Shown here: piece by piece, positions 44,922-63,943 of the stretch
How positions within the stretch are numbered: the first letter of the stretch is position 1
How the letters are laid out: every line of letters begins with the position of its first letter
DNA from: an uncultured Acholeplasma sp.
Lineage (GTDB): Bacteria > Bacillota_I > Bacilli_A > Acholeplasmatales > Acholeplasmataceae
NCBI GenBank assembly: GCA_937868795.1
Contig: CALMNM010000094.1
Span: forward strand, 1-63,943
Direction: 5' to 3'
DNA: 63,943 nucleotides
Program-made: the position numbers and the translations under genes
The notes under the pieces: model-generated
Told to the model about the DNA's origin: nothing
Databases searched by the model: none
Seen by the model: only the letters and a program-made list of their open reading frames with translations

Positions 44922-44958
44922 GAATTTAGAATTTTAGAAAACATTGGAGGAATATGTC

Positions 44959-46338
44959 GTGTTAACAGGTATTTGGCTTATTATTGCGTTACTTGTCGCC
45001 ATCGTCATTATGATTCTCTTGATTTCGAAGTTCAAAGTTCATCCGTTTATTTCGATCCTTTTGATCTCAATTATACTCGGACTCTTTGTACTTCCCATCA
45101 AGGATATCCCAGGGACGATCGCAGCTGGTTTTGGTGGTACCATGCAAGGTATCGGTATTGTCATTATTCTTGGCGCACTCATCGGATTCATCGTTGAAAA
45201 AACGGGTGCAGCATTAACGATTGCAGATGCTGTTGTCAAGGTTGTTGGTAAAAAACATCCTGAACTCGCGATGATGCTCATGGGTTGGATTGTTTCTATT
45301 CCCGTCTTTTGTGACTCAGGCTTCATCATCTTAGATCCTATTCGTAAATCGATGGCAAAAATTACGAAGAAGTCTTCTGTCGGTATGGCTGTAGCTTTAT
45401 CCTTAGGGCTCTATGCATCACACGTGTTTATCCCACCTACACCGGGTCCAATTGCCGCAGCAGCGAATGTGGGTCTTGCGGATAATTTGCTTCTCGTCGT
45501 TGGTATCGGTGCGTTAGTTTCCATCTTTGCATTAGTTCCCGCTTACTTCTTCGCATTATACATCGGTAAAAAAGTTAAAGTTCAAGAAGATCAAGACGAT
45601 GATGTTAATCCGAATGCTGCTCAAGAAGCGTTTGATGCCCTCAAGGCAAGCTACGGAAAACTTCCTAATGCATGGCTATCCTTTGCACCCATTATCGTTC
45701 CTATCTTAGCTATGTCATTAGGTACATTAGCGAATGTGCTTGGTTGGACCTCTCCAGTCTTTGGCTTCTTAGGTCATCCCATTCTCGCGTTATCCTTAGG
45801 TTTGATCTTTGGTATCGTTTTACTTCAAGTCACTGGTAAACTCAATAAGTTTTATGATATTACCAATGAAAACTTAAAAGTTGTCGGTCCTATCCTTTTT
45901 ATTACCGCAGCTGGTGGTGTCTTAGGTCGTGTGATCTCTGCAGCAGGTGTCGTTGACTATGTTAAAGGTAGTGCGGATGCACTCAAGGTGATGGGTATTT
46001 TATTCCCATTTGCCATCGCTGCAATCCTTAAGATCGCTCAAGGTTCATCCACGGTTGCTATCGTGACGACGTCAGCGATGTTAGGTTTATATACAGACCC
46101 AGCATCCTTAATGACCGCATTAGGCTTTACTACACCTCTCGCAGCAGCGCTTGTTGTCATGGCGATTGGTGCGGGAGCAATGACGGTCAGTCATGCCAAT
46201 GACTCTTACTTCTGGGTGGTCACCAATATGAGTGGTATGACACCTGATCAAGGGTACAAAACACAAACCCTTGGTACACTTATTGAAGGTCTTGGTTCTA
46301 TTATCGGTATTCTTCTCATCAGTTTGATTTTCCTATAA
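44959..46338 (+). CDS. gntP: GntP family gluconate/glycerate:H+ symporter
   Basis: 459 residues from GTG 44959 (GGAGG, 8-base spacing; TTG 44944 sits within the SD). About 12 membrane helices; GntP signatures include FGGTMQGIGIVIILGALIG, VSIPVFCDSGFIIL, SHVFIPPTPGPIAAAANVG, KIAQGSSTVAIVTTSAM and MTVSHANDSYFWVV. Proton-coupled import of gluconate or D-glycerate; followed by glycerate kinase and preceded by cdaR, so glycerate is the likely substrate. Confidence 0.93.
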   Translation: MLTGIWLIIALLVAIVIMILLISKFKVHPFISILLISIILGLFVLPIKDIPGTIAAGFGGTMQGIGIVIILGALIGFIVEKTGAALTIADAVVKVVGKKHPELAMMLMGWIVSIPVFCDSGFIILDPIRKSMAKITKKSSVGMAVALSLGLYASHVFIPPTPGPIAAAANVGLADNLLLVVGIGALVSIFALVPAYFFALYIGKKVKVQEDQDDDVNPNAAQEAFDALKASYGKLPNAWLSFAPIIVPILAMSLGTLANVLGWTSPVFGFLGHPILALSLGLIFGIVLLQVTGKLNKFYDITNENLKVVGPILFITAAGGVLGRVISAAGVVDYVKGSADALKVMGILFPFAIAAILKIAQGSSTVAIVTTSAMLGLYTDPASLMTALGFTTPLAAALVVMAIGAGAMTVSHANDSYFWVVTNMSGMTPDQGYKTQTLGTLIEGLGSIIGILLISLIFL

Positions 46339-46348
46339 GCATGTTATG

Positions 46349-46384
46349 ATGAAAAGAGGTTATCCTGCGATAGTCTCTTTTCAT
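46349..46384 (+). promoter_or_regulatory. 36-base hairpin between gntP and glycerate kinase genes
   Basis: ATGAAAAGAGGTTATC (46349-46364), tetraloop CTGC, GATAGTCTCTTTTCAT (46369-46384) form a continuous 16-bp stem with two G-T pairs. No U-run follows. Probably an mRNA-stability or processing element that sets the kinase to permease ratio, or a target of post-transcriptional control. Confidence 0.75.
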
Positions 46385-46412
46385 TAGACATCAAAAGAAA
46401 GGGGGTTAACCA

Positions 46413-47540
46413 GTGAAGACTTATTTAATTATTCCGGATTCATTTAAAGGAACGTTATCGTCGATTGACGTTTGTTCAATCATCCAAGAAGAAATCTTGA
46501 AGGTTGATCCTCAAGCAATCACTAAAACACTCCCCGTTGCTGATGGTGGAGAGGGAAGTGTCGATGCCTTTTTACAAGGACTTCCTGGTAAGAAAGTGTT
46601 TGTTGATGTGAAAAATCCTTACTTTGAAACGATGACATCTTTTTATGGCATCATCGATCAAGGAAAGACTGCAGTGATTGAAATGGCTGCGTGTGCAGGA
46701 CTTCCTCTAGTGGAGCATCGAAAAAATCCTGCGCTTACAACGACCTACGGCGTCGGTGAGTTAATTTTAGATGCCTTAAACCATGGTGTTGAAAAAATTA
46801 TCTTAGGCTTAGGGGGAAGTTCAACCAACGATGGTGGATGTGGGTGTGCTGCAGCATTAGGGGCTAAATTCTACAACCAACAAAAGATGAGTTTTATTCC
46901 CACTGGCGGTACGCTTCATATGATCGAATCCATAGACTTAAGTGGCATGGATCCCCGTCTTCAACACATTGAATTTATCACCATGTGCGATATCGATAAT
47001 CCCCTTTATGGCATCGAAGGTGCTGCTTATGTCTTTGGTCCTCAAAAAGGTGCGAATCACGCCATGGTTGAATATTTAGATGCCAATCTAAAGCATTTGT
47101 CACTTAAGGTCAAAGAGGCAACAGGCTTTGATGATCCCTTCTTCAAAGGTGCAGGTGCGGCGGGTGGTATGGGTTACGGAACCAAGGTATTCTTGCATTC
47201 AAAGATTCAGATGGGCATTGAAACCGTCCTCGATGTCATCTCATTCGATGAGCTTGCTAAGGATGCCGATGTCATCATCACCGGTGAAGGAAAATTAGAT
47301 CGTCAATCACTCCGTGGAAAAGTGGTCATTGGGGTTGCTCGCAGAGCGAAAAAGACAAAAGCGAAGGTGGTTGCTGTCGTGGGATCACTCGAAGGAAATC
47401 CCAAGGACTATACATCTGAAGGTGTGGATCACATCGTCATCACCAATTACGAAAATCTTAGCTTTGAGGAACTCAAACCTCGAGCAAAAGCAGATATGAT
47501 TTTCACCGTATCACAATTTCTAAAAAAGAATCTCGTCTAA
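46413..47540 (+). CDS. glxK: Glycerate kinase (GlxK/GarK type)
   Basis: 375 residues from GTG 46413 (AAAGGGGG SD). MKTYLIIPDSFKGTLSSIDVC at the N-terminus, TLPVADGGEGSVDAF, GLGGSSTNDGGCGCAAALGAKF and ITGEGKLDRQSLRGKVVIGVAR are family I glycerate kinase motifs (PF02595). Makes 2-phosphoglycerate (or 3-phosphoglycerate) from D-glycerate and ATP, linking to lower glycolysis. Ends at a bidirectional terminator. Confidence 0.95.
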   Translation: MKTYLIIPDSFKGTLSSIDVCSIIQEEILKVDPQAITKTLPVADGGEGSVDAFLQGLPGKKVFVDVKNPYFETMTSFYGIIDQGKTAVIEMAACAGLPLVEHRKNPALTTTYGVGELILDALNHGVEKIILGLGGSSTNDGGCGCAAALGAKFYNQQKMSFIPTGGTLHMIESIDLSGMDPRLQHIEFITMCDIDNPLYGIEGAAYVFGPQKGANHAMVEYLDANLKHLSLKVKEATGFDDPFFKGAGAAGGMGYGTKVFLHSKIQMGIETVLDVISFDELAKDADVIITGEGKLDRQSLRGKVVIGVARRAKKTKAKVVAVVGSLEGNPKDYTSEGVDHIVITNYENLSFEELKPRAKADMIFTVSQFLKKNLV

Positions 47541-51232: not shown

Positions 51233-53188
51233 TTATGCATTAAAAAGTGTCATGCTCGATTCGAAAAGCGACTTATACTGACTATCTGATGGGTAAAATG
51301 CGATAGGTAATCCTAATGGTGTCGCGATCTCATGAATTCCTTCTGTCAATGAAAGATTGGTTCCAAGTTGAATCCATGACCCTTTGGGTAAGGTGACCAT
51401 CATGGTGCGACAATGATCTTTGATCACGGGATAACACAAGAGATCAGGTCCATACATAAAGGCATACGATTCTTGATACGCCCACGGTTCATCATGATGA
51501 AAAAACAGAGGACGAATGACCGGATATCCTTTGAGATAATATTCTTGGAGTAGAGCTTTTGTATAGGGAGCGAGTAAACCAAAGAGTTGACTTAAACGAC
51601 TCATGTGAAAAAGCGTCTCTTCGTCGTGATGGAATTGAACATTTTTATCGGGTTGATTACCTTCATGACAACGGAACACTGGAGAAAACACGTTCATTTC
51701 TGCCCAACGAATAAAGAGTTCCTTTGATCGTTTCATATGAAGGATCGTCGTATACCCTCCGATGTCGGAATGGGTAACCCCAACACCAATCGTTGACATG
51801 GATAACGCAGAGATGATGGCAGAAGGCAACCCATCTTCTTTAGAAAAATCGACATGCTGGTCGCCAGCCCAAAGTGAAGGTGCATATTTTTGCGTCCCTG
51901 AATAGCCTGCACGAACGAAAAAGAATAATTCATCGCTATTTTCTGATTCCATCACCGCTTCATGATTGAGCTTTGCCCAGAGCACTGGCCAGATGTTATG
52001 AACATCTTCGGCATGACCTTGATGAATCACGGCATCCGTTGGTAAGTACTCACCAAAATCAGCCATCCATCCTTTCATACCTATACCGATCATCTCTTTC
52101 TTGATGACTTCTTTGTACCACTGGTACGCTTTAGGGTGGGTGAGATCTACAATCCCTGCCTGAAAGGTCGTCGATTGAATGTGATAGACATCCTGTTGTT
52201 GATTTAAGACGAGATAGCCGAGTGACTTCGCTTCTTGATAAAGTGGGGTATCTTCTTTTAAAAATGTGTTGATATATCCTAAGAATGCAATGCCTTGTTC
52301 ATTCATCCACTTAATGGCTTCTTCAAGTTTGGGGTAGAGTTCATCATTTTTCTGCCAGTTCCAATACACTTGATAACCAAAGGCAGTAATCAGATGTCCT
52401 GACCAGTCTTGAGACCACACACCCGCTAGAGGAATGTTATGCTCTTGAGCATTTTTAATATTTTTAATTAATGCCTCAGTACCGCCTTGTGAAGCGATAA
52501 TGGCTCCTTGATGAATCCAAGAGGGAAGCTTGGGTTGTCTTCCGATGAATGCGGTAAAATGTCCTAATAGGTCTGTGAATGATTCATCATAAAAGAGATG
52601 AATGTCTTCAGGGATACTACGAAATTGATGGATCGTTTTAAGTGCTTGAAAATCATAAGTTTGATACGAATTACATGTCGCGTGAAAGAGATATTTTTGA
52701 CTGGAGAGATAGGTAGGTTGTGCGTAATAGGTTTGTTGTTCTTTCCAACTTGAGTGATGGTTAGGATTCACACCTAGGAGTTTTTCACGCAAAAATTTCT
52801 TGATGAGTTTTTTAACCGTATGGTGTTCACTGACCCAAATGTTGACTTTTTTACCTTTCAAATCAAAGGCAGCGAACTGTTCACCACATCCATAAACATG
52901 CTCATCCTTGATGGCGTGCGTGATTATTTCAAAACGATTAAAATCCGATTGATTAATGATCTTTAAGGTGAGATGGTGATCGCTTTGAATAGGCTTCACT
53001 CCAATGAACTGATGGCTTGCTTCATACCAAAAAACCCCTTCATCCTCATGATGAAAGATTAGGGGTTGCCATGGCTTGATGTGATCTTTGGTTTTAAATG
53101 TTCCCCGTGACATATGATATGCAGCTCGCCCCGTCGTGGCACGAAGCATCAAATGCTCATAGTCACCAAAAAAGGATGATACCATCAT
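51233..53188 (-). CDS. yihQ: GH31 sulfoquinovosidase (YihQ-like) with Arg-to-Gln substitution at sulfonate site
   Basis: 651 residues from ATG 53188 (GGAG, 9-base spacing; overlaps transporter stop as ATGA; an upstream TTG at 53203 lies over the SD). GH31 barrel with nucleophile Asp377 in KGWMADFGEYLP and acid/base Asp443 in SLWAGDQHVDFS, the E. coli YihQ arrangement (Asp405, Asp472). YihQ substrate residues align as: Gln288 to Gln260 (GVWSQDWSG), Trp304 to Trp276, Tyr508 to Tyr479 (HSDIGGYTT). Arg301, which holds the sulfonate, aligns to Gln273 in AFGYQVYWNW (codon 52370-52372). Expected to release sulfoquinovose from SQ-glycerol in the cytoplasm. No leader. Followed by no clear terminator. 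Confidence 0.85.
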   Translation of the reverse strand: MMVSSFFGDYEHLMLRATTGRAAYHMSRGTFKTKDHIKPWQPLIFHHEDEGVFWYEASHQFIGVKPIQSDHHLTLKIINQSDFNRFEIITHAIKDEHVYGCGEQFAAFDLKGKKVNIWVSEHHTVKKLIKKFLREKLLGVNPNHHSSWKEQQTYYAQPTYLSSQKYLFHATCNSYQTYDFQALKTIHQFRSIPEDIHLFYDESFTDLLGHFTAFIGRQPKLPSWIHQGAIIASQGGTEALIKNIKNAQEHNIPLAGVWSQDWSGHLITAFGYQVYWNWQKNDELYPKLEEAIKWMNEQGIAFLGYINTFLKEDTPLYQEAKSLGYLVLNQQQDVYHIQSTTFQAGIVDLTHPKAYQWYKEVIKKEMIGIGMKGWMADFGEYLPTDAVIHQGHAEDVHNIWPVLWAKLNHEAVMESENSDELFFFVRAGYSGTQKYAPSLWAGDQHVDFSKEDGLPSAIISALSMSTIGVGVTHSDIGGYTTILHMKRSKELFIRWAEMNVFSPVFRCHEGNQPDKNVQFHHDEETLFHMSRLSQLFGLLAPYTKALLQEYYLKGYPVIRPLFFHHDEPWAYQESYAFMYGPDLLCYPVIKDHCRTMMVTLPKGSWIQLGTNLSLTEGIHEIATPLGLPIAFYPSDSQYKSLFESSMTLFNA

Positions 53189-54642
53189 GCTTTTTGTCTC
53201 CAAAGTTGGTCATAAGGATACCCTGTGACCTTCTCACAAACTTTCTTTTCTTCTTCCGTTGCCATACTATCTTCTAGCCCTTTACGGCGTAAGATATCTT
53301 TTTTAATAATATCGAATTCTTTCTTATTCAAGGGGTAACGATAGGTGACATAAAGTGCACCGATCATGAAGATCGTAGGTAAAATAACAAACGCATACTT
53401 AATCCCTTCAATGGTTAAGCTGCTCTGCATACCACTAGTCCCTTCAATCCCCTTATCGTATCCAATCACGGTTAATAAAAGCCCAATGATTCCAAATGCT
53501 AATCCATTGGCAATCTTTCTCGTGAATGTTGCCATTCCCGAATAAATACCCGGACGTCTTTCTCCTGAAATAAGTTCATCTACATCGGTCAGATCAGGTA
53601 GGATGGCAAATGCGGTCACTGAAGAGGCTGCAGTACCAAATCCTGAAATAAAGGAAGCGATGAAAATTGGTAAGATCGGTGCTCCGTTATACGCGAAAAA
53701 TAACATAGATAGCATCGCAACGATTCGAATGGGGAACCCATAAAGAATCGGGACACGTTTGGATGTTTTGGATAAGATATATTGAAATAAAAACATCGCT
53801 AAGATTTGAGATCCTAAAACCCCTGACATGACAAAGGTGTATTGATTGCTTTGACCTAAGACATCACGCAAGAAATAGATGAAAAGAATCATCACAAAGT
53901 CAGCAGATCCTTGTCCTAACAAAAAGATACCTAAGAAATACTGAAACGATTTATTCTTATAGACGGTCCATGATTCCTTAACAAACTGTCCAAAAGAAAA
54001 TGAAGGGACGACTTTATCATTTTGTTTTTCCCATGTCTTTAGGAATGTGAAGAGAATGGAGATAAAGAAAATCACGCCAAAGATAATCCCCATCACGAGA
54101 TAACCTTGGGATGAGCCACCTCCCCCAACACGGGAAATGATCATATTTGGAAGCAATCCTGCAATGATGGCGGACGCTGCTGAGAAAATCATGCGAATCC
54201 CCGTATATTGACCTCTTAGGTGATAATCATCCACCATTTCAGGAAGTAAAGCATTATAAGGAATCATCACGATGGTAAACCCTGTTGAGAATAACAAGAA
54301 CGTCACTAAATAGAAGACATAGGTCCAAAAGATCGATCCTGATAACGATACCCAGAGTAACGCGAAGGTGATCGAACCGATGAAACTTCCAATCAAAAGA
54401 TAAAACCGTTTAGACCCAAACTTACTCTTCGTTCGATCGACGATCGTTCCCATGATTGGATCGGAAACAGCATCCCAAATTTTCCCAATTAAGGGAATGG
54501 TTCCAGCTAAAATGGCAGGAATCCCTAAACTCGTTAAAAACTCTAAATAAAAGATTGAGATAATGAGAAAAGTTCCCCCGCCGAACATATCGGCTGCACC
54601 ATAGGCAATTTTCGAGGAAAGACGTTTTTCTAAGGGTTTCAT
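53185..54642 (-). CDS. GPH-family (MelB-like) glycoside:cation symporter, probable SQ/SQ-glycerol importer
   Basis: 485 residues with about 12 helices. MelB/GPH features: KIAYGAADMFGGGTFLIISIFYLEFL, GKIWDAVSDPIMGTIVDRTKSKFGSKRFYLL (cation-site Asp region and loop 2-3), IPYNALLPEMVDDYHLRGQYTG, and late PDLTDVDELISGERRPGIYSGM. E. coli YihO/YihP sulfoquinovoside importers belong to this family. Overlap with the SQase gene supports import of the SQ glycoside. Cargo remains inference. Confidence 0.87.
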   Translation of the reverse strand: MKPLEKRLSSKIAYGAADMFGGGTFLIISIFYLEFLTSLGIPAILAGTIPLIGKIWDAVSDPIMGTIVDRTKSKFGSKRFYLLIGSFIGSITFALLWVSLSGSIFWTYVFYLVTFLLFSTGFTIVMIPYNALLPEMVDDYHLRGQYTGIRMIFSAASAIIAGLLPNMIISRVGGGGSSQGYLVMGIIFGVIFFISILFTFLKTWEKQNDKVVPSFSFGQFVKESWTVYKNKSFQYFLGIFLLGQGSADFVMILFIYFLRDVLGQSNQYTFVMSGVLGSQILAMFLFQYILSKTSKRVPILYGFPIRIVAMLSMLFFAYNGAPILPIFIASFISGFGTAASSVTAFAILPDLTDVDELISGERRPGIYSGMATFTRKIANGLAFGIIGLLLTVIGYDKGIEGTSGMQSSLTIEGIKYAFVILPTIFMIGALYVTYRYPLNKKEFDIIKKDILRRKGLEDSMATEEEKKVCEKVTGYPYDQLWRQKA

Positions 54643-54661: not shown

Positions 54662-55417
54662 TTATTTAAAATTGATAATCGATTGAAAATAGTAACTACT
54701 TGTCGAATGACTTTGTCCATAATCGATCAAACGTTTGTACTGATCATAGACGTGATTCGTTGATGAAATCGAAGGTGAACCCGTGGGTTCATTTAAGTAT
54801 TTGGCGATATGTTCAGGTAAGTTTACCGCTTTGGTCACACGATGGGATTCTTTCGCATAAAGTCCATAGTGTTCAAAGATAAACGCATTGAGTGGTTCAA
54901 CCCCTGTCAGCGCTTGATCGAGATCAGGAAATATACTCATCGGTAAATAGTTTTCAAGGATGATGAGAGGGCGTTGATTCCCTTTATAGATACGATTGAT
55001 GTATAAGAACTTACGTGCTTGATCAAAGCCAAAGCGTTTGGCTTCCTCATCGCTAAGTGTCACGATTTTTTTACTGACACATTCAATCGATGGGGTTAAC
55101 CCTAACGCGATAATGGCATCATAAATCGCGACATTTCGGTCAAAGAAGTAATTGGTGAGTTCAAGATAAGCAATCTCATATCCTTGTTCAGTCTTCTTAA
55201 TAAAGCTTTCTCTTGTCAGATGTCTATAGGCTTGAATCGCAAATTCCTTATCGATATTAAGCACATTAGCAAGTTCTAAGGGATCGGGTAATACATCTTG
55301 ATAATAGAACGTTTGATCGAGGATCAGCGCCTTAATACGATCCTTAATTTGAAGATCATAGGGACGTTTTTCTCGTCGATCAATCGAGATCAATTCAAAG
55401 GCTTTATGGTTTTGCAT
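54662..55417 (-). CDS. GntR/UTRA regulator B
   Basis: 251 residues. N-terminal winged helix (about 18-80; YDLQIKDRIKALILDQTF, LPDPLELANVLNIDKEFAIQAYRHLTRESFIKKTEQGYEI) but more divergent than usual; UTRA effector domain about 95-245 (RKFLYINRIYKGNQRPLIILENYLPMSIFPDL, SSYYFQSIINF). ATG 55417 with GAGGTG SD. Overlaps regulator A by 14 bases. Twenty bases upstream of the transporter gene. Possibly senses SQ or a pathway intermediate. Confidence 0.88.
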   Translation of the reverse strand: MQNHKAFELISIDRREKRPYDLQIKDRIKALILDQTFYYQDVLPDPLELANVLNIDKEFAIQAYRHLTRESFIKKTEQGYEIAYLELTNYFFDRNVAIYDAIIALGLTPSIECVSKKIVTLSDEEAKRFGFDQARKFLYINRIYKGNQRPLIILENYLPMSIFPDLDQALTGVEPLNAFIFEHYGLYAKESHRVTKAVNLPEHIAKYLNEPTGSPSISSTNHVYDQYKRLIDYGQSHSTSSYYFQSIINFK

Positions 55418-56135
55418 GCACGGTCACCTCGAATGAAGAAAATTCCCCTGGGAAGTAATTGACAATGTAGCCAATGACGGTTTGTTTAGGATCATAGATT
55501 TGACTACGAATCAGGTAAATGGCTTCACCAGGCAATATATTCAAAAGCTGCGCTTCTGCAGATGATGCAAGTGTGGGAGAGAATGTGTTTTGGATATGAT
55601 GAATCTTTTGATGGTAGACTTCTTGAATGAGCGTAAAAACACCCACATTGGCTGAATAATTCTTTTTGAGTTTGGGATAGTGTTTTTCAGGTAAATAAAT
55701 ATGTTGATAGACTAAAGGAATATCATTGGATTTGACGATACGATGAATCACACAAAATGACTCATCTTTATCCATCTTGAGCATCCGTTTGATCATGTAT
55801 TCATCATCTACGCAGTCAAAAAGAATGTCTTGAATCACATGGTTCGGTTCAAATTCAAAACGGTAGACATTCAAAAAATCTTGATGATACGTCATCCGAT
55901 TGGTAACAAATGTCCCCTTCCCTTTGATCCGTTTAATCTTTTGTTGATCAATGAGTTGTTGATAGGCCATCTTTACTGCAGTTTGGCTAACATCAAAAAC
56001 CTCGCAGATTTCTTTCTCTGTGGGCAGTCGATCATTATAGGTGAGTCTTCCTTCATCCATCGCTTTTGAGATCGATGAAGCAATCTGTTTATAGATCGAT
56101 GTTTTGATGGTTTTGTCAATGAAAATATAATCCAT
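55404..56135 (-). CDS. GntR/UTRA regulator A
   Basis: 243 residues. Classic GntR winged helix (about 10-75; TSIYKQIASSISKAMDEGRLTYNDRLPTEKEICEVFDVSQTAVKMAYQQLIDQQKIKRIKGKGTFV in pieces) and UTRA domain about 95-238 (ESFCVIHRIVKSNDIPLVYQHIYLPEKHYP, IYLIRSQIYDPKQTVIGYIVNYFPGE). Best DNA-binding domain of the pair. First gene of the regulator-transporter-SQase unit, 63 bases from the last gene of the pathway operon, with repeated AAC-N3-GTT motifs in front. Confidence 0.9.
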   Translation of the reverse strand: MDYIFIDKTIKTSIYKQIASSISKAMDEGRLTYNDRLPTEKEICEVFDVSQTAVKMAYQQLIDQQKIKRIKGKGTFVTNRMTYHQDFLNVYRFEFEPNHVIQDILFDCVDDEYMIKRMLKMDKDESFCVIHRIVKSNDIPLVYQHIYLPEKHYPKLKKNYSANVGVFTLIQEVYHQKIHHIQNTFSPTLASSAEAQLLNILPGEAIYLIRSQIYDPKQTVIGYIVNYFPGEFSSFEVTVHAKP

Positions 56136-56198: not shown

Positions 56199-57089
56199 TT
56201 AGTCTTTCATAACCCCAAGTTCTTCTAAGAGTTTTCCAACTTTACGCGGGCGATCTGCGACTTTCGCACCCGCCTTTTCTAACATTTCAATCTTGTTTTG
56301 GACAGAACCTTTACCACCGGTGATAATTGCTCCTGCATGGCCCATCTTTTGTCCTTTAGGTGCGGTTCTTCCACCGAGGAAAGCAACAAGAGGTTTCGTA
56401 AATGTTTTATTCATCATCGCTTCAGCAACTTCTTCTTCCATGGTTCCACCAAGTTCACCAATGATGACAACCGCTTTTGTTTCTAAATCTTTCTCATAAA
56501 GGGGTAGGAATTCAGCAAACCGCGCACCAGGTACAGGATCCCCTCCTACACCAATGAGTGAGGATACACCGTATCCCGCTTCAACGATCATCGCGGTCAC
56601 TTCGTTGGTTAAAGAACCACTGCGTGTCATGACACCAATGGATCCTTTTTTATAGACACGTTCAATCCAGTGAGGAAAACTTCCCATCATCGCTTCTTTG
56701 GGAGAGATCACACCTGAGGTATTACCACCTACAACAAAGGCGTTTTCTTCTAACGCACGTTGTCTGATCTCCATCATTTCATGAAGAGGGATGCCATCAG
56801 CAATCGTGACAATCTTTTTAATGCCTGCATCAAGGGCTTCAAAGACAGCATCTTTGGTCATCTTAGGGGGAACAAAAAGCATGGTGGCATCAACCACGTG
56901 ATGTTTTAAGGCATTTTTAACGGAATGATACACGGGGATGCCTTCAACGGATTGTCCTTCTTTGCCAGGAGTGACACCGCAGACAACTTGAGTTCCTAGA
57001 TCCATCATATGTTTGGTCCAGAAACTTCCTTCACTCCCGGTGATTCCTTGAACACACACACGTGTGGTTTTATCGATAAAGATACTCAT
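56199..57089 (-). CDS. Acyl-CoA ligase (ADP-forming) alpha subunit, SucD-like; probable sulfoacetate-CoA ligase
   Basis: 296 residues. CoA-binding Rossmann domain (VCVQGITGSEGSFWTKHMMDLGTQVVCGVTPGKEG) and ligase domain with phospho-His251 in KMGHAGAIITGGKGSV, and Glu in VIIGELGGTMEEE. Standard succinyl-CoA synthetase alpha features. In the operon with an acylating aldehyde dehydrogenase and no other TCA genes it is best read as SqwKL-type: sulfoacetyl-CoA + ADP + Pi giving sulfoacetate + CoA + ATP. Overlaps the beta-subunit gene by 4 bases. A short GACTAAGTC hairpin followed by AATTTTTT at the stop could be a weak terminator. Confidence 0.83.
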   Translation of the reverse strand: MSIFIDKTTRVCVQGITGSEGSFWTKHMMDLGTQVVCGVTPGKEGQSVEGIPVYHSVKNALKHHVVDATMLFVPPKMTKDAVFEALDAGIKKIVTIADGIPLHEMMEIRQRALEENAFVVGGNTSGVISPKEAMMGSFPHWIERVYKKGSIGVMTRSGSLTNEVTAMIVEAGYGVSSLIGVGGDPVPGARFAEFLPLYEKDLETKAVVIIGELGGTMEEEVAEAMMNKTFTKPLVAFLGGRTAPKGQKMGHAGAIITGGKGSVQNKIEMLEKAGAKVADRPRKVGKLLEELGVMKD

Positions 57090-58207
57090 CGCGCTTCCCC
57101 CTTCGCAAGACGTACAGCCGTTCTTACGGCTTCTTCCGTATCAAAGAGTGGGGTGAGTCCCGCTTCTTTTAATAGTTCAACTGCGTGGGCTTCATTGGTT
57201 CCTCTAATGCAGGTGACAATCGGTCGATCAGGATTAAGTTTCTTAATCGCTTCCACAATACCTTCTGCCATAACATCAGCACGAGCAATCGTTCCGAATG
57301 TCACGATCAAAATCACTTTTGAAGGAACCTTTAAACAAATTTCCATTGCCTTGACGGCTTTCTTATAATTGGGACCACCAAATTCGAGATAATTCGCGAC
57401 ACTTCCCCCTTCATAGTGAATGAGGTCATAGACGGTGGTGGTTAAACCAGCACCGGCACACATGAGTCCAATATCGCCATCAAACTGAATAAAAGGAATT
57501 CCTTCTAGGGATGCTTCATACGCAGCTTCTGAAGAATAGTCGGTTTCGGTTTGGGCAAAGCGTGGTTGACGGAACACCGAGTTATCGTCAATCATGATCT
57601 TGCCATCACCTGCGATAAGTGTATCTTCTTTTGTTGCAAACAAAGGATTGATTTCGACGAGTTCAGCGTCATATTTTACAAAAATATCATAGAGATTCAA
57701 TAGGATCTGAATCATTTGTTTCGTTTGATTGGTAGATAAATTCATTTGATATGCGATATGTCTTGCTTGATGCGCGAGCAAACCATAACGAAGATCAATG
57801 GGTTCTTTGATGATCTGTTCAGGGTGTTCCACCGCGAGCGTTTCTATTTCAACGCCACCGGATTCACTCGCGATTAACACGGCTTTACCACTTGGCGCAT
57901 CCACGGTGATGGAGACATAGATTTCTTTATCGATATGAACCGCTTCTTCAATCAAAAGATGCTTCATCGATGGTTCTACTTCAAAAAGTCTCTTTATCTG
58001 AAAAAGAGCTGCTTCTTCATCTTTGACGAGTTGAATGAGTCCTCGTTTCCCGCGACCACCACTTAGAACTTGTGACTTGATCACACAAGGAAAACCGATA
58101 CTTGAAAAATCTGGACTCATATTATCCTTATCGATCAGTAAACTTTTAGGTGTGGTTATTTTATGTTCACTAAAGACTGTTTTTGCTTGATACTCATAGA
58201 GTTTCAT
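57086..58207 (-). CDS. Acyl-CoA ligase (ADP-forming) beta subunit, SucC-like; probable sulfoacetate-CoA ligase
   Basis: 373 residues. ATP-grasp part (1-230): MKLYEYQAKTVFSEHKITTPKS, KSQVLSGGRGKRGLIQL, VEINPLFATKEDTLIAGDGKIMIDD. Ligase/CoA part (240-370): IGLMCAGAGLTTTVYDLIHYEGGSVANYLEFGGPNYKKAVKAME and PIVTCIRGTNEAHAVELLKEAGL. Partner of the alpha subunit next to it. The usual DVGG of SucC is EFGG here. Catalyses substrate-level ATP formation in the proposed sulfoacetate branch; succinate or another acid remains possible. Confidence 0.83.
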   Translation of the reverse strand: MKLYEYQAKTVFSEHKITTPKSLLIDKDNMSPDFSSIGFPCVIKSQVLSGGRGKRGLIQLVKDEEAALFQIKRLFEVEPSMKHLLIEEAVHIDKEIYVSITVDAPSGKAVLIASESGGVEIETLAVEHPEQIIKEPIDLRYGLLAHQARHIAYQMNLSTNQTKQMIQILLNLYDIFVKYDAELVEINPLFATKEDTLIAGDGKIMIDDNSVFRQPRFAQTETDYSSEAAYEASLEGIPFIQFDGDIGLMCAGAGLTTTVYDLIHYEGGSVANYLEFGGPNYKKAVKAMEICLKVPSKVILIVTFGTIARADVMAEGIVEAIKKLNPDRPIVTCIRGTNEAHAVELLKEAGLTPLFDTEEAVRTAVRLAKGEAR

Positions 58208-59610
58208 GCCTTCACCTCTTTAAGATAATCACCAAAAATCTCTTCATCAGAAGGACGTTTTGGGGTAAAGTATTCGGATACCCAAGTTACGTTAATAAAG
58301 TGTTTAAAGGTGATGTTTTCTGAAGTGATATTACCACCCCACGAACCACAACCTAAGGATACCGTAGAAGGCATGCCATTAAAGAACGCACCTCCATTAC
58401 CTGCAGCTTGTGCTTGGTTGACCATGACACGGCTCGTCTTCATGCGTGCACCAATAGTGTCGATATAAGATTGATTAAAGGTATGGATACCACAGGAATG
58501 ACCTGTACCGTAATTATTCGTGAGTCTTTCTAAAATCTTATAGCCTTCTTCAAATTCAGTATATTTAAAGACGGTTAAAACAGGGGATAATTTTTCTTGA
58601 GAAAAGAAGTCTTTTTCAATCTCATTAGCTCCTTCTACTAGCAATACTTTAACATCATCACTAACAGCGATTCCTGCTGCATCTGCAATCGTCTTTGCAG
58701 ATTGTGCAATGATCGCTGGATTGATAGAGCGATAACCTTTCGCATTTAAAATCCACATGTATTCTTCTAAGGTTTTTCTTTCTTCTTTCACGAAGTAAGA
58801 ACCTAATCTAATTAGTTCTCCAATAAAGGCATCATAGATGGATTCATGGACAATCACTGAGTTTTCACTTGAACACGAAGTCGCGTTATCAAAGGATTTA
58901 CTGGTAAATACTTTCTTGGCTGCATCTAAAACATCACAATCTTCCGCGATGATTTGTACAGAATTACCGGGTCCTACACCATAAGCTGGAGTCCCTGAAG
59001 AATATGCCGCTTTAACCATCGGTCCACCACCTGTTGCAAGCACGACATTCACTTGCTTCATGAGTTCACCTGTGAGCTCTAAAGAAGGTTCTTCAATGAC
59101 TTGAATGAGGTCTAGAGGAGCCCCTACTTTCCGTAATCCTTCACGCATAAAATCCACAGCCATCTTGGTTGATAACTTCGCTTTTGGATGAGGTGCGAAG
59201 ATGACAGCATTCTTTCCTTTAACAATGGTAATTCCATTGCTTGCGGGAGTTGCTGTTGGGTTGGTCACAGGTGTTAAAGCACCAACAACACCGACGGGTT
59301 TCGCATATTTTTTGATCTTCTTTTCGTGATCAACATCAATGAGCCCAACTGATTTTGCACCTTTAATATCTTTTAAAACACCTAAGACTTTATTCTTGTG
59401 TTTAAGAATTTTATCAGGGACATTTCCCATACCCGTTTCTTCAACCGCACTCTTGGCGAGTTTGGCGATATTCTCATCGTTGTAGACTTCCCAACCGATG
59501 GCCACGCATACCTTATCAATCTCTTCTTGGGTATAATGATCAATCTGTTGTTGAGCTACTTTCGCTCTTTCGACGTATGTTTGAATGATTTCTTTTGGAT
59601 TCATGGACAT
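58204..59610 (-). CDS. sqwD: CoA-acylating aldehyde dehydrogenase, probable sulfoacetaldehyde dehydrogenase (SqwD/SauS-like)
   Basis: 468 residues, SD AAAGGAG; ATG 59610 or 59604. Aldehyde dehydrogenase fold of the EutE/SauS acylating subgroup: PVGVVGALTPVTNPTATPASN, ATGGGPMVKAAYSSGTPAYGVGPGNS, catalytic Cys near 246 in SFDNATSCSSENSVIV; the second Glu of ordinary ALDHs is absent. No N-terminal encapsulation peptide is evident. With the transketolase genes and CoA ligase it should convert sulfoacetaldehyde + CoA + NAD+ to sulfoacetyl-CoA. Overlaps sucC-like gene by 4 bases. Symbol recalled from the Acholeplasma pathway; substrate not proven here. Confidence 0.82.
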   Translation of the reverse strand: MSMNPKEIIQTYVERAKVAQQQIDHYTQEEIDKVCVAIGWEVYNDENIAKLAKSAVEETGMGNVPDKILKHKNKVLGVLKDIKGAKSVGLIDVDHEKKIKKYAKPVGVVGALTPVTNPTATPASNGITIVKGKNAVIFAPHPKAKLSTKMAVDFMREGLRKVGAPLDLIQVIEEPSLELTGELMKQVNVVLATGGGPMVKAAYSSGTPAYGVGPGNSVQIIAEDCDVLDAAKKVFTSKSFDNATSCSSENSVIVHESIYDAFIGELIRLGSYFVKEERKTLEEYMWILNAKGYRSINPAIIAQSAKTIADAAGIAVSDDVKVLLVEGANEIEKDFFSQEKLSPVLTVFKYTEFEEGYKILERLTNNYGTGHSCGIHTFNQSYIDTIGARMKTSRVMVNQAQAAGNGGAFFNGMPSTVSLGCGSWGGNITSENITFKHFINVTWVSEYFTPKRPSDEEIFGDYLKEVKA

Positions 59611-59619
59611 GTCACTCCT

Positions 59620-60864
59620 TTAGACTAAGATTCCGACTAAACCTAAGATCCATAAAAAGATTGCGATAAACGCTAGGGATACAAAGGCATAAGAAAATAA
59701 CTGATTGAATAACTTCTTCTTATCCACCACTTCTGGTGCACTGGCAATCGCGAGTGCCCCCATGGTAGAAAAGGGACTGATGGTCACAAAGTGAGAACCA
59801 ATCGCGATCGCAATAGTAATCACTGCTGGGGAAACCACATTATTCATCTTATCGGCAAGTTCAACCGCTGTGGGGATAAGGGTAGGCATCACGACACCAA
59901 CCGCGGATGAGAACATCGACATCACACCAGATAATAATGCCATGATGGGAATAGCCGTTCCTTTACTCATTAAATTAGCAAGGAAGGTGGTTAGTAATGC
60001 AACACCACCAAGCTCACTGATAACACTGATCAAGACAGCTGTTCCACAGATTAAGGTAATCGCCGTCCATGCAACACTGTGAATGGCTTGATGAGGATCT
60101 GCTGATTTAATGATGAGTAAGAAGGTAGCAAACACAATACTTGCAAAACCGACGTTCACGCCAAACCCCATGACCCAAACAATGAGTAAGAGGATACAAA
60201 TGAGCGTAATGATTTGTTGTTTATTTAACTTCTCTGGTTTTTCAATGTCGATGCGATTCCCTTTGAGTTTCGCACCACCCAGTAAAAAGAATAAGAAGAT
60301 AGATAAGCAAGTCATGCTGAAAACATGGGTTAAATAGATTCTAAAACCTAAATCTCCAACACCATTTTCTGCAGCGAGTTGTAGGGCAACAATCCCATTA
60401 GGTGCGATGGGTGATAATCCACCAGCAATCGCACCATTGATGATGATAATACTCATCAAGGCAATGGGAATTTTTGCTTGGTAAGCGAGTGCTAAACCGA
60501 TTGGTAATAACAACGCACCGGTTGAAATGTTTCCTGGCCCAATTGATGCAAGAATTAACGCGAGGAAATAAAACACCACAATGATCAGAATCGTTTTCCC
60601 ATGGGATTGATAAATCATCATGTTGGATACTTTTCCTAAGGTTCCATTGAGTTTGGTGATCCCAAACAGTAAGGTCACACCAAAGGTGGTAAAGAAGAGT
60701 TTGAGAGGCCAGTACGAAATGATCGTATCAATCGGGATGCCACCCAAATAGAAACCGACCAATAGGGAAAAGACTAACGCAATTAAACCCACGTTAACAT
60801 TCTTCCAAAAGCCGATAGCAATCGCTACAACGAGCGAAAGTAATGAAATGATCGCGATCGTCAT
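59620..60864 (-). CDS. MatC/SLC13-like anion permease, probable sulfoacetate exporter
   Basis: 414 residues with 11-12 helices. N-terminal block VAIAIGFWKNVNVGLIALVFSLLVGFYLGG and SYWPLKLFFTTFGVTLLFGITKLNGTLGKV is typical of the MatC dicarboxylate-carrier N-terminus; later IGPGNISTGALLLPIGLALAYQAKIPIALMSII, GLSPIAPNGI and ISPFSTMGALAIA repeat-like loops fit the ion-transporter superfamily. Located between the isomerase and dehydrogenase genes, it likely carries a sulfonate or carboxylate end product out. Direction is inference. Weak SD, start 5 bases inside the neighbour's 3' region. Confidence 0.83.
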   Translation of the reverse strand: MTIAIISLLSLVVAIAIGFWKNVNVGLIALVFSLLVGFYLGGIPIDTIISYWPLKLFFTTFGVTLLFGITKLNGTLGKVSNMMIYQSHGKTILIIVVFYFLALILASIGPGNISTGALLLPIGLALAYQAKIPIALMSIIIINGAIAGGLSPIAPNGIVALQLAAENGVGDLGFRIYLTHVFSMTCLSIFLFFLLGGAKLKGNRIDIEKPEKLNKQQIITLICILLLIVWVMGFGVNVGFASIVFATFLLIIKSADPHQAIHSVAWTAITLICGTAVLISVISELGGVALLTTFLANLMSKGTAIPIMALLSGVMSMFSSAVGVVMPTLIPTAVELADKMNNVVSPAVITIAIAIGSHFVTISPFSTMGALAIASAPEVVDKKKLFNQLFSYAFVSLAFIAIFLWILGLVGILV

Positions 60865-60869
60865 ATCAA

Positions 60870-61361
60870 TTACCGTTCTTTATGAAAACTTTCTTTTTCG
60901 ATCTCTCTGACGATAACTCTCGCCTTTTCTAGATTACGAGCACGCCAATCTTCTAAGTTTTGGGTAAACGATGTATTTAAGAATGTTTTTGTCATTTCAA
61001 CACCCATGATGGGTGCGATGATCCATCCACCCATGCATAAGACATTGGCATCATTAATCGCACGGCATTTTTCTGCTGCATAAACGGATTCACAAGCAGC
61101 TGCGTAAACACCTTCATGCTTATTCGCGACCACAGACATCCCCATGCCAGTTCCACAGATTAAGATCCCTCGTTCATAGGTTTTATTTTGAATGAGGGTT
61201 GCTCCTTTTTTGGCGACTTCAAAGAAAGGAAGGGCATTGTTTTCATCAATGGTTCCGATATCTTCTACGAAGTAGTCTTGTTCTAAGAGATACCCTTTAA
61301 TGGCTTCTTTAAGCACATATCCAGATTTATCTGATCCAATAAAGATTTTATTCATCGTCAT
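60870..61361 (-). CDS. sqwI: RpiB/LacAB family isomerase, probable 4-deoxy-4-sulfoerythrose isomerase (SqwI-like)
   Basis: 163 residues (ATG 61361 or 61355). NKIFIGSDKSGYVLKEAIKGYLLEQ replaces the usual DHAG with DKSG; proton-transfer Cys in RGILICGTGMGMSVVANK (near 69), then AAEKCRAINDANVLCMGGWI and a C-terminal WRARNLEKARVIVREIE helix. In RpiB the DHAG loop and Arg residues handle the phosphate and substrate; the altered loop fits a sulfonated substrate (inference). Sits between transketolase and permease genes as in sulfo-TK clusters. Confidence 0.83.
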   Translation of the reverse strand: MTMNKIFIGSDKSGYVLKEAIKGYLLEQDYFVEDIGTIDENNALPFFEVAKKGATLIQNKTYERGILICGTGMGMSVVANKHEGVYAAACESVYAAEKCRAINDANVLCMGGWIIAPIMGVEMTKTFLNTSFTQNLEDWRARNLEKARVIVREIEKESFHKER

Positions 61362-61377: not shown

Positions 61378-62322
61378 CTAGTTTTTTCTTGCGATGACAC
61401 GATGTGCTGCATCAACGATATTCTTTGCTTTAAGACCAAATTTTTCCATGAGGAAATCTTTCTTTCCGACTTCACCAAAATGGTCTTTGACGCCGACTCT
61501 TTCCATCGGTGCTGGATAATGTTCACCTAGTACTTCAGCAACAGCACTTCCTAATCCGTTGATGATATTATGGTTTTCAGCAACCACCACTGCATGCGTC
61601 TTTTTGACATCGTTAATGATGGCTTCTGCATCAATGGGTTTAATCGTATGGATATTGATGACACTCGCAGATATACCTTCTTCTTTAAGGACTTTCGCTG
61701 CATCAAGTGCTTCTTTCACCATAATCCCAGTAGCGAAAATAGAAACATCTTTACCTTCTAGAATCTGAGTAGCTTTTCCTAACGTAAAGGGTTGATTGTC
61801 TTCAAAAATAGGATCAAACTCTTGACGTAGTAAACGAATATACACAGGACCTTTATGGTCAATAATTTGTGGAAATAATGCCGCAAGTTGAACACCATCC
61901 ACGGGTTCAACCACTGTCATCCCTGGAAGATTTCTCATGAGTCCCACATCTTCTAAAGACATATGGGTTCCCCCATTGAGTTGTGCCATGACACCTGGGT
62001 CCGATCCACACATCTTCACATTAAGTCCAGAATAAGCGACCGATAAGGTCACTTGGTCAAACACACGACGTGTGGCAAACGGAGTAAAGGTATGCGTAAA
62101 CGGGAGTTTGCCCATATTCGCTAAACCAGCAGCTACCCCAATCATGTTCGCTTCTTGAACACCGACGTTCACGGTTCTTTCAGGATACTTTTCAGCAAAC
62201 ATCGTCGTTTTTAAAGCTTTCATTAAGTCCGCTTCTACGATGACGATTTCAGGATACTTCTCTGCATAATGCATCAGTAAGTCGACATAGATATCTCTTA
62301 ATTGTCTATTTCTTAGTTCCAT
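61378..62322 (-). CDS. sqwH: Transketolase C-terminal subunit, probable sulfofructose/sulfoerythrulose transketolase (SqwH-like)
   Basis: 314 residues. Pyrimidine-binding domain: VVEADLMKALKTTMFAEKYPERTVNVGVQEANMIGVAAGLA with catalytic-type Glu57, THTFTPFATRRVFDQVTLSVAYSG, THMSLEDVGLMRNLPGMTVVEPVD; C-terminal transketolase domain 185-310 (VSIFATGIMVKEALDAAKVL). Partner of the N-terminal subunit 3 bases upstream. Two-gene transketolases also occur as ordinary pentose-phosphate enzymes, so function rests on the neighbouring genes. Letter of symbol recalled, not verified. Confidence 0.85.
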   Translation of the reverse strand: MELRNRQLRDIYVDLLMHYAEKYPEIVIVEADLMKALKTTMFAEKYPERTVNVGVQEANMIGVAAGLANMGKLPFTHTFTPFATRRVFDQVTLSVAYSGLNVKMCGSDPGVMAQLNGGTHMSLEDVGLMRNLPGMTVVEPVDGVQLAALFPQIIDHKGPVYIRLLRQEFDPIFEDNQPFTLGKATQILEGKDVSIFATGIMVKEALDAAKVLKEEGISASVINIHTIKPIDAEAIINDVKKTHAVVVAENHNIINGLGSAVAEVLGEHYPAPMERVGVKDHFGEVGKKDFLMEKFGLKAKNIVDAAHRVIARKN

Positions 62323-62325
62323 GAT

Positions 62326-63138
62326 TTATTCCAACCCTTCAATGGCTTGTTTTGCCATGTCCTTCGTGACAGGCATATTATGTGAGCCTACTTTACCTTC
62401 ACAGAAAGATGCACCTTTTCCTTTAATGGTGTGCATGATAATCATAGAAGGTTTTCCCTTAATGGCTTTTGCATTCAAAATCGCTTTTTGGATGGCGATG
62501 ACATCATGGCCATCAATCACTTGAACATACCAATTAAAAGCTTCCCATTTCTTATCTAAAGGATGCACATCATTGATCTGATTGACATCACCATCGATTT
62601 GCATCTTGTTATAATCGGTGAATGCGATAAGGGTATCCAATTTTCTGTTTCCTGCAAAAAGTGCAGCTTCCCAAATTTGCCCTTCTTGAGATTCACCATC
62701 ACCAATCAGGGTAAAAATCTTATAGGGTGCATGATCCATCTGTGCTGCTACTGCCATACCCACGGCTGCTGAGAATCCTTGACCTAAAGATCCCGTGGTC
62801 ATATCCACACCGACCGTCTTATTCATATCGGTATGTGAGGGAAGATTGGTATTGGAGACATTCAAGGTATCCAATAGTTCCATTGGGAAATAACCTTTCA
62901 AGGCAAGTGTTGCGTAAACCGCAGGTCCACCATGACCCTTCGATAAGACGAAACGATCACGTTCACTCCATTTAGGATTTTTAGGATCAATCTTCATCTG
63001 ATCAAAATAAAGGACAGCGAGTGCATCAGCAATCGATAAGGATCCGCCGATATGTCCAACCCCGAGGGTCGCGATGGTATGCAAGGTGAGTTTTCTTATT
63101 TCCTTTGCATAATGTTCTAATAATTGTCTGTTTTCCAT
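62326..63138 (-). CDS. sqwG: Transketolase N-terminal (TPP) subunit (SqwG-like)
   Basis: 270 residues. Thiamine-diphosphate binding motif GDGESQEGQIWEAALFAG (about 144-161) ending at DYNKMQ; HTIATLGVGHIGGSLSIADALAVLYF, FVLSKGHGGPAVYATLALKGY, TGSLGQGFSAAVGMAVAAQ. Complements the C-terminal subunit. Predicted to remove a C2 unit from 6-deoxy-6-sulfofructose and pass it to glyceraldehyde-3-phosphate, giving xylulose-5-phosphate and sulfoerythrose, with a second round after isomerisation giving sulfoacetaldehyde. SD GGAGA 6 bases before ATG 63138. Confidence 0.85.
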   Translation of the reverse strand: MENRQLLEHYAKEIRKLTLHTIATLGVGHIGGSLSIADALAVLYFDQMKIDPKNPKWSERDRFVLSKGHGGPAVYATLALKGYFPMELLDTLNVSNTNLPSHTDMNKTVGVDMTTGSLGQGFSAAVGMAVAAQMDHAPYKIFTLIGDGESQEGQIWEAALFAGNRKLDTLIAFTDYNKMQIDGDVNQINDVHPLDKKWEAFNWYVQVIDGHDVIAIQKAILNAKAIKGKPSMIIMHTIKGKGASFCEGKVGSHNMPVTKDMAKQAIEGLE

Positions 63139-63147
63139 AATCTTCTC

Positions 63148-63943
63148 CTAATAAATGTATGTATCAATCTTGAGTAATTGTCCTAAAACGCTAAGTTCTT
63201 CTTTGACATCACCATAGATCACCACAAAGTGGGGTTCCCAGCCATCTTGAACTAAATCTTCGATGAGTGGATGTACGTCTTGTTCAACTTTGACGACGAC
63301 AGAGGTTCCTAAGAACTGTTGAGGTTTATCAAGGATTTCCCCTGAGGCGATAAAGAATCTAAATGTGCCATCAGGACGTCTTCCGATACGGAATAATGTC
63401 GCTTCTTTATTCGCTCTTAAACCGAACTCCATGGTAGGTCCAATCTTGCGGTTAGGATGAACGCCTGTGGTTGCTCCTGTATCTAGACGGGCTAGTGAAC
63501 ATGCTGCGGTGCCACAATGCCAGAACGTAATCGTGTTTTCTTCTTCATTGATGGAGACAGGATCTCCTAAGTAAGTAGGTGTTTCTGAGAGTTCTTGACC
63601 CACATACATCGATAAAGCACCATATGCATCAGCTTCACATGCAGCAGCAATCTTCCGGTCATTGAGTAATCCTAAGACACCACACACAGGTGTTTTATAT
63701 TCTGTGAAGAAGTCAGGCCAACAGCGGGATGCAATCGCGTGAATCTGGTGCTTGTCAATATAATCTTGATAAGCTTTAAACAGTTTCACAAAGTCTCTTT
63801 GATTGGTGGCATCTATCTCTTTTAAACCCACCATCTTTGATTCAGCGAGTTCTCTTTCTTTTTGAATCGCTTCTTCTGATAATTTTTGTGCTTCTTGCAT
63901 GAATTCTCTTGCTTCAATGGTCTTTAGGTTCACACCAAAAGCA
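63148..63943 (-). CDS. sqvD: Fucose/arabinose isomerase-like protein, probable SQ isomerase SqvD (N-terminus outside window)
   Basis: Open frame runs to the right edge (residues AFGVNLKTIEAREFM at the start), so the true N-terminus lies beyond 63943; a GTG at 63933 is only an internal codon. The 264 visible residues correspond to the middle and C-terminal part of L-fucose/L-arabinose isomerase-like enzymes: IASRCWPDFFTEYKTPVCGVLGLLND, AACEADAYGALSMYVGQEL, TFWHCGTAACSLAR, ATGVHP-like loop and FFIASGEIL. Glu/Asp/His metal residues are consistent with E-A-D in ACEADAYG and the H of FWHCG. In sulfoglycolysis such enzymes turn sulfoquinovose into sulfofructose. Confidence 0.8.
   Translation of the reverse strand, partial: AFGVNLKTIEAREFMQEAQKLSEEAIQKERELAESKMVGLKEIDATNQRDFVKLFKAYQDYIDKHQIHAIASRCWPDFFTEYKTPVCGVLGLLNDRKIAAACEADAYGALSMYVGQELSETPTYLGDPVSINEEENTITFWHCGTAACSLARLDTGATTGVHPNRKIGPTMEFGLRANKEATLFRIGRRPDGTFRFFIASGEILDKPQQFLGTSVVVKVEQDVHPLIEDLVQDGWEPHFVVIYGDVKEELSVLGQLLKIDTYIY

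Follow-up and report, generated by a model that had tools for sequence, protein, structure and literature searches.

A sulfoglycolysis-linked clade of YihQ-like GH31 glycosidases with glutamine in place of Arg301

A sulfoglycolytic gene cluster of an uncultured Acholeplasma sp. includes a gene for a YihQ-like glycosidase of family GH31 in which glutamine occupies the position of Arg301 in sulfoquinovosidases (SQases). The gene lies on a 63,943-nt stretch of DNA (assembly GCA_937868795.1, contig CALMNM010000094.1), referred to here as the window. Sequence comparisons indicate that this Gln, far from being an isolated mutation, is fixed throughout a sister group of the proven SQases that occurs widely, and the clade that carries it is linked to sulfoglycolysis. 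The window enzyme, whose catalysis we infer, most likely represents a second class of sulfoquinovose (SQ)-glycoside hydrolase that lacks Arg301, and this class may bind the sulfosugar differently than the proven SQases do.

The gene (positions 51,233–53,188, minus strand, as are all features below) encodes 651 amino acids and was assigned using NF007746, the Pfam GH31 domains and AlphaFold2/Foldseek. A longer open reading frame runs from TTG 53,203; the protein start is ATG 53,188, which shares the sequence ATGA with the stop codon of the GPH transporter gene lying upstream. This overlap supports the ATG, and therefore the Gln273 numbering of the first-pass annotation. The protein contains PF01055 and PF21365, and its NF007746 score of 680.6 bits (cutoff 553; the model is named alpha-glucosidase) places it in the YihQ-like branch. 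By alignment, with positions computed from ATG 53,188, the nucleophile is Asp377 (YihQ D405; 52,058–52,060) and the acid/base is Asp443 (D472; 51,860–51,862). Trp276 (W304; 52,361–52,363) is kept in all groups compared here, and Q234, Q260 and Y479 correspond to Q262, Q288 and Y508. Retention of the catalytic pair and of the Q288, W304 and Y508 equivalents, claimed in the first-pass annotation, is thus borne out.

Gln273, encoded by CAA at 52,370–52,372, faces Arg301 in local alignments to 5aed, 6pnr, 8r56 and 5ohy (E. coli YihQ, E. rectale SftG, BmSQase and the A. tumefaciens SQase, respectively), and MAFFT gives the same pairing. The segment reads FG-Y-Q-V-Y-W in the window enzyme and FG-K-R-V-M-W in the SQases. 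The claimed replacement of Arg301 stands: a local shift restoring Arg is ruled out because the alignments are free of gaps in this region. Every proven SQase in the alignment has Arg301. A sequencing error or chance as the source of Gln273 is likewise ruled out, since every close clade homologue has Gln; all 58 aligned members of the clade carry it.

The GH31 gene closes a single minus-strand run that, within the window, reaches from SqvD to the GPH symporter and the Gln-type enzyme. At the contig end lies the C-terminal part of SqvD, the sulfoquinovose isomerase (63,148–63,942; Fucose_iso_C), which is truncated there and is 94.7% identical over 264 aa to the complete SqvD of a congener. The run continues with the N- and C-terminal halves of a transketolase, labeled SqwG (62,326–63,138) and SqwH (61,378–62,322) here; an RpiB-type isomerase (60,870–61,361; SqwI by context); a CitMHS/MatC-type permease in the SqwE position, a candidate sulfonate exporter by context (59,620–60,864); a SauS-family, acylating sulfoacetaldehyde dehydrogenase-like protein (58,204–59,610; SqwD by context); SucC-like beta (57,086–58,207) and SucD-like alpha (56,199–57,089) subunits of a CoA ligase, SqwK/L-type by context; two GntR-family regulators (55,404–56,135 and 54,662–55,417); and the GPH-family sugar symporter (53,185–54,642), partner of the Gln-type GH31. 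Homology of SqvD, SqwGH, SqwI, the dehydrogenase and the CoA ligase assigns this run to the sulfo-transketolase variant ending in sulfoacetate, with the dehydrogenase below its family cutoff (NF047625, 507 bits, E = 3.7e-152, cutoff 600), and makes the GH31 gene part of an SQ catabolic cluster. PMC11659671 attributes this variant to Acholeplasma (Chu et al. 2023), and the window shares with it, as described there, SqvD, SqwGH, SqwI, the acylating dehydrogenase, the CoA ligase and the candidate exporter. The permease at the exporter position is of the CitMHS/MatC type, in contrast to the TauE type of many Firmicutes clusters. Beside the sulfo cluster, at 44,944–47,540, are genes for a GntP-type permease and a glycerate kinase-like protein, named from sequence only.

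YihQ-like homologues in 101 genomes from the same genus, family and order divide into an Arg-bearing and a Gln-bearing set of paralogues, and several genomes carry both. Among 85,000 species genomes scanned, the Gln motif occurred in at least 118 stretches. We also counted both types in unselected genomes, using a motif in which residue 301 was left open. This gave 4 Gln and 4 Arg in the window's own class, 10 and 9 in Lachnospiraceae, and 11 and 8 in Erysipelotrichaceae, where some genomes may recur from the own-class set; in the latter two families the two types are thus about equally frequent. No third residue appeared at 301 among the genuine open-motif matches in these three sets. One match in the Erysipelotrichaceae scan (G1165) was dropped as spurious, being unlike GH31.

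In a tree built with the diagnostic columns masked and the very distant YicI as outgroup, the Arg sequences, including four proven SQases, form one clade (SH-aLRT 99), and the window protein falls outside it. The Arg/Gln label requires one change, with Gln sequences on both sides of the Arg clade, and FastTree agrees. Arg301 therefore seems to have been gained once, with Gln as the older state, although the root is uncertain because the YicI branch is long. As read from these sequences, Gln is probably the background, ancestral state of the YihQ branch at residue 301. The first-pass annotation had described an SQase with a substituted Arg; the Gln is there, but the enzyme does not appear to be an SQase that lost its Arg, as Arg301 seems to be derived and of one origin. 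Because it has neither Arg301 nor a place in their clade, the window enzyme is a YihQ-like GH31 outside the proven SQase group. PDB sequence searches returned no chain from the Gln group, and a synthetic 36-residue probe against the PDB recovered the known SQases and one chance match but no other member. In the literature searched and in the PDB we found no characterized Gln-clade member, and the same literature contained no paper describing the clade; key papers lay outside that search, and prior notice is possible.

Three groups can be told apart by their residues. We define the Gln clade by Gln301 together with H153, K161 and H474 (YihQ numbering), the latter three invariant in 58/58 members and absent from the Arg-types and from a big Gln group described below. 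In the window enzyme these are His122 (YihQ Q153 position; 52,823–52,825), Lys131 (T161 position; 52,796–52,798) and His445 (N474 position, two residues after the acid/base; 51,854–51,856), which with Gln273 make it a member. The Arg-types alone have Arg301, D/E366, F367, G368, E369 and an invariant Q462; the last five are missing or unconserved in the Gln clade. That Arg301 and the acidic 366–369 motif are absent together suggests that the two types differ in how the pocket is built, and not merely by the loss of a residue. The third, big Gln group comprises proteins of about 720–790 aa from Pseudomonas, Chloroflexota, Leptospiraceae and Actinomycetota. It lacks Y409, Y193 and H196, which the Arg-types and the Gln clade have in common, and retains Q262, Q288, W304 and Y508 in the alignment, yet none of 36 stretches around its genes contained sulfoglycolytic markers. 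Q288, W304 and Y508 are therefore no proof of an SQase, contrary to their earlier use as SQase marks. Loop 153–176 (GVGR...AGG) is present in the Arg-types and the big Gln group and is replaced in the Gln clade by a segment for which AlphaFold2 predicts a helix (window residues 125–138, pLDDT 84–89; 93.8 for the whole model). The best Foldseek matches of this model are the SQases 6pnr, 8r56 and 5oht (TM 0.92).

Linkage of the Gln clade to sulfoglycolysis is seen both in genome content and in operons. To avoid selection bias, we cross-tabulated 426 unselected genomes of Lachnospiraceae and Erysipelotrichaceae, calling a genome Gln-only if its YihQ-like GH31 enzymes included the Gln but not the Arg type. 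SqvD was present in 14 of 15 Gln-only genomes, compared with 3 of 394 that had neither type (Fisher p = 3e-22). This value treats species as independent and so overstates the strength of the association, but both families give one picture, which the operons bear out. For Lachnospiraceae the SqvD counts were 7/8 (Gln-only), 7/7 (Arg-only), 2/2 (both) and 1/233 (neither); the corresponding counts for Erysipelotrichaceae were 7/7, 4/4, 4/4 and 2/161. Many Gln-type genes are part of a complete sulfo-transaldolase operon that also encodes SqvD, DUF4867, a YihU-like reductase, a transaldolase and a GPH importer sharing about 49% identity with that of the window, and operons of this composition occur without any Arg-type gene. 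Butyrivibrio sp. MB2005 (L107) is one Gln-only genome whose sulfo-transaldolase operon is complete; Pseudobutyrivibrio ruminis DSM 9787 (L076) likewise has a Gln-type enzyme. Moreover, the Gln type is the only YihQ-like GH31 in three spirochaete sulfo-transketolase clusters (L212, L213 and L216), and both SqvD-positive Oscillospirales genomes without the exact motif carry a Gln-type gene in the operon. That the Gln type is the sole YihQ-like GH31 of many sulfoglycolytic genomes, of gut as well as environmental bacteria, goes beyond the first-pass annotation.

The same is true of the arrangement within the window's genus, where the Gln gene is a second GH31 and a canonical Arg-type SQase belongs to the same cluster. 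Two congeners, G001 and G012, and another member of the family, G026, have genes beyond SqvD for a binding protein, two ABC permeases and an Arg-type SQase; DUF4867 is also found there in the two congeners. In the genus, the Gln gene closes the sulfo-transketolase cluster, coupled in translation to the gene of a GPH importer, and the Arg-type SQase and ABC importer stand at the cluster's other end. A binding-protein search did not find this missing part in the window's own assembly, as expected given that the contig ends inside SqvD. These layouts point to two importer-hydrolase pairs in the genus, ABC with the Arg type and GPH with the Gln type. There the Gln enzyme probably acts on another SQ glycoside, or works with another uptake route, than the Arg type does. 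Five relatives (G052, G056, G041, G050 and G028) have the Gln gene at a site away from the sulfo-transketolase cluster; it adjoins a GPH gene in all but G050, where it is at the contig start. DUF4867 (SqvB) of the two congeners (L031/L032 and L033/L034) is only 60% identical between them, whereas neighboring enzymes are mostly 78–95% identical.

On balance, we think it likely that the window enzyme is a cytosolic, retaining GH31 alpha-glycosidase of the Gln301 clade that hydrolyzes a GPH-imported alpha-sulfoquinovoside and feeds SqvD. The coupled symporter would bring the glycoside in, the GH31 would cleave it in the cytosol, and the released SQ would pass to SqvD and on through the sulfo-transketolase route to sulfoacetate. 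Koshland double displacement is the established catalysis in the family (PMC11968277). Both catalytic Asp residues are present in the window enzyme, and an SQ glycoside as substrate is suggested by the Gln-only operons, which hold no other glycosidase that could feed SqvD. In the absence of Arg301, a neutral Gln-Gln-Gln-Trp-Tyr pocket (Gln273, Q234, Q260, W276 and Y479) might hold the sulfonate, possibly with help from H153, K161 and H474, whose roles are guesses. This reading is favored by the SqvD linkage, the Gln-only operons, the spirochaete and Oscillospirales clusters, the genus layout, the SQase fold matches and purifying selection on the gene within the genus (dN/dS ~0.1). Counting against it are the invariance of Arg301 in the proven SQases, the missing Arg-type-specific residues, the same Gln, Trp and Tyr residues in the big Gln group, and the five relatives with the gene outside the cluster.

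The first-pass annotation had offered two explanations, compensation by other residues or an altered substrate, and these remain the live ones. In one rival reading the -1 subsite takes a neutral hexose: the Gln enzyme would act in SQ catabolism without cleaving the SQ glycoside itself, on for example a glucosyl cap, a galactosyl cap or some other sugar of a plant glycolipid, while a different enzyme frees SQ. The absence of sulfo genes near the big Gln group, the lack of the Arg-type pocket residues, and an Arg-type SQase on the same contig in the window's genus and in G1189, G1145 and G1035 all fit this idea, which we nonetheless regard as unlikely, though a serious contender. Most Gln-only genomes in the two families have no Arg type, their operons encode the whole SQ route with no other glycosidase, and the Gln clade shares with the Arg-types the Y409, Y193 and H196 that the big Gln group lacks.

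More remote is an ordinary neutral alpha-glucosidase or alpha-xylosidase with its GPH importer, situated beside the sulfo-transketolase cluster by chance. The NCBIfam name is that of an alpha-glucosidase, E. coli has a comparable pair of hydrolase and transporter genes in yicI-yicJ, and some relatives carry the Gln and GPH pair away from the sulfo cluster. We consider this improbable in view of the clade-wide SqvD linkage in two bacterial families and a cluster-end position conserved across several genomes. YicI resembles the window enzyme in fold, catalytic family and gene pairing but is only about 20% identical to it, lacks the QDW...FG.Q..W segment and is not linked to sulfo genes. Decay of a redundant paralogue that is losing function after duplication of an Arg-type SQase seems very improbable. 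Compared with most neighboring genes, the window gene does change two to three times faster at amino-acid sites, and the G028 copy (L047:5733-7606) is split in two frames, either because the gene is broken or through misassembly. Against decay, the low dN/dS goes together with intact catalytic residues and clade invariants, and the tree shows that the window gene did not arise by recent duplication of the Arg type.

Our preferred reading, cleavage of an alpha-sulfoquinovoside, sets the window enzyme beside known SQases of two families. With the GH31 SQases (YihQ, SftG, AtSQase/SmoI and BmSQase) it shares the Asp pair, the Q262, Q288, W304 and Y508 equivalents, about 35–38% identity when aligned by structure and the same gene company (SqvD, SqvB, and SqvA or SqwGHI); it differs in Gln for Arg301, the absence of the D/E366-F-G-E369 motif, its own H153, K161 and H474, the predicted helix in place of the GVGR loop, and its separate clade. 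The NAD-dependent GH188 SQases (SqgA), the alternative in sulfoglycolytic clusters without an Arg-type GH31, belong to another family with an oxidoreductive mechanism and hold the sulfonate through Arg, Lys and a main-chain amide (PMC10755693). SQases have been described as one monophyletic group, and a 2026 rumen study reported SQ-degrading Caproiciproducens without YihQ or SqgA, suggesting that these bacteria depend on other microbes to release SQ, or else possess a sulfoquinovosidase not yet known (PMC13219744). The Gln-type GH31 is a candidate for that enzyme. A bolder proposal, which we advance tentatively, is that the clade is a widespread second SQase class that binds sulfonate without Arg301 through a rebuilt loop (H153 and K161) and H474, predates the Arg301 class, and is the missing SQase of sulfoglycolytic bacteria reportedly without YihQ and SqgA. 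Arg301 serves to recognize SQases, and yihQ primers and trees rest on the proven group. If the Gln clade does release SQ, its turnover in rumen and gut is being undercounted, and sulfonate recognition either works without a charged partner at 301 or allows that partner to move.

Two Gln-type enzymes (L245:13330-15366 and L246:5339-7333) have Val for Phe298 (AVGKQ) and lie in complete sulfo-transaldolase operons; such variants escape motif searches that use FG. In addition, two Lokiarchaeota stretches (L063:4343-7650 and L075:1439-4710) pair a Gln-type YihQ-like GH31 with a FucI/SqvD-like isomerase (24–26% identical to SqvD), hinting at the use of sulfosugars or related sugars in Asgard archaea.
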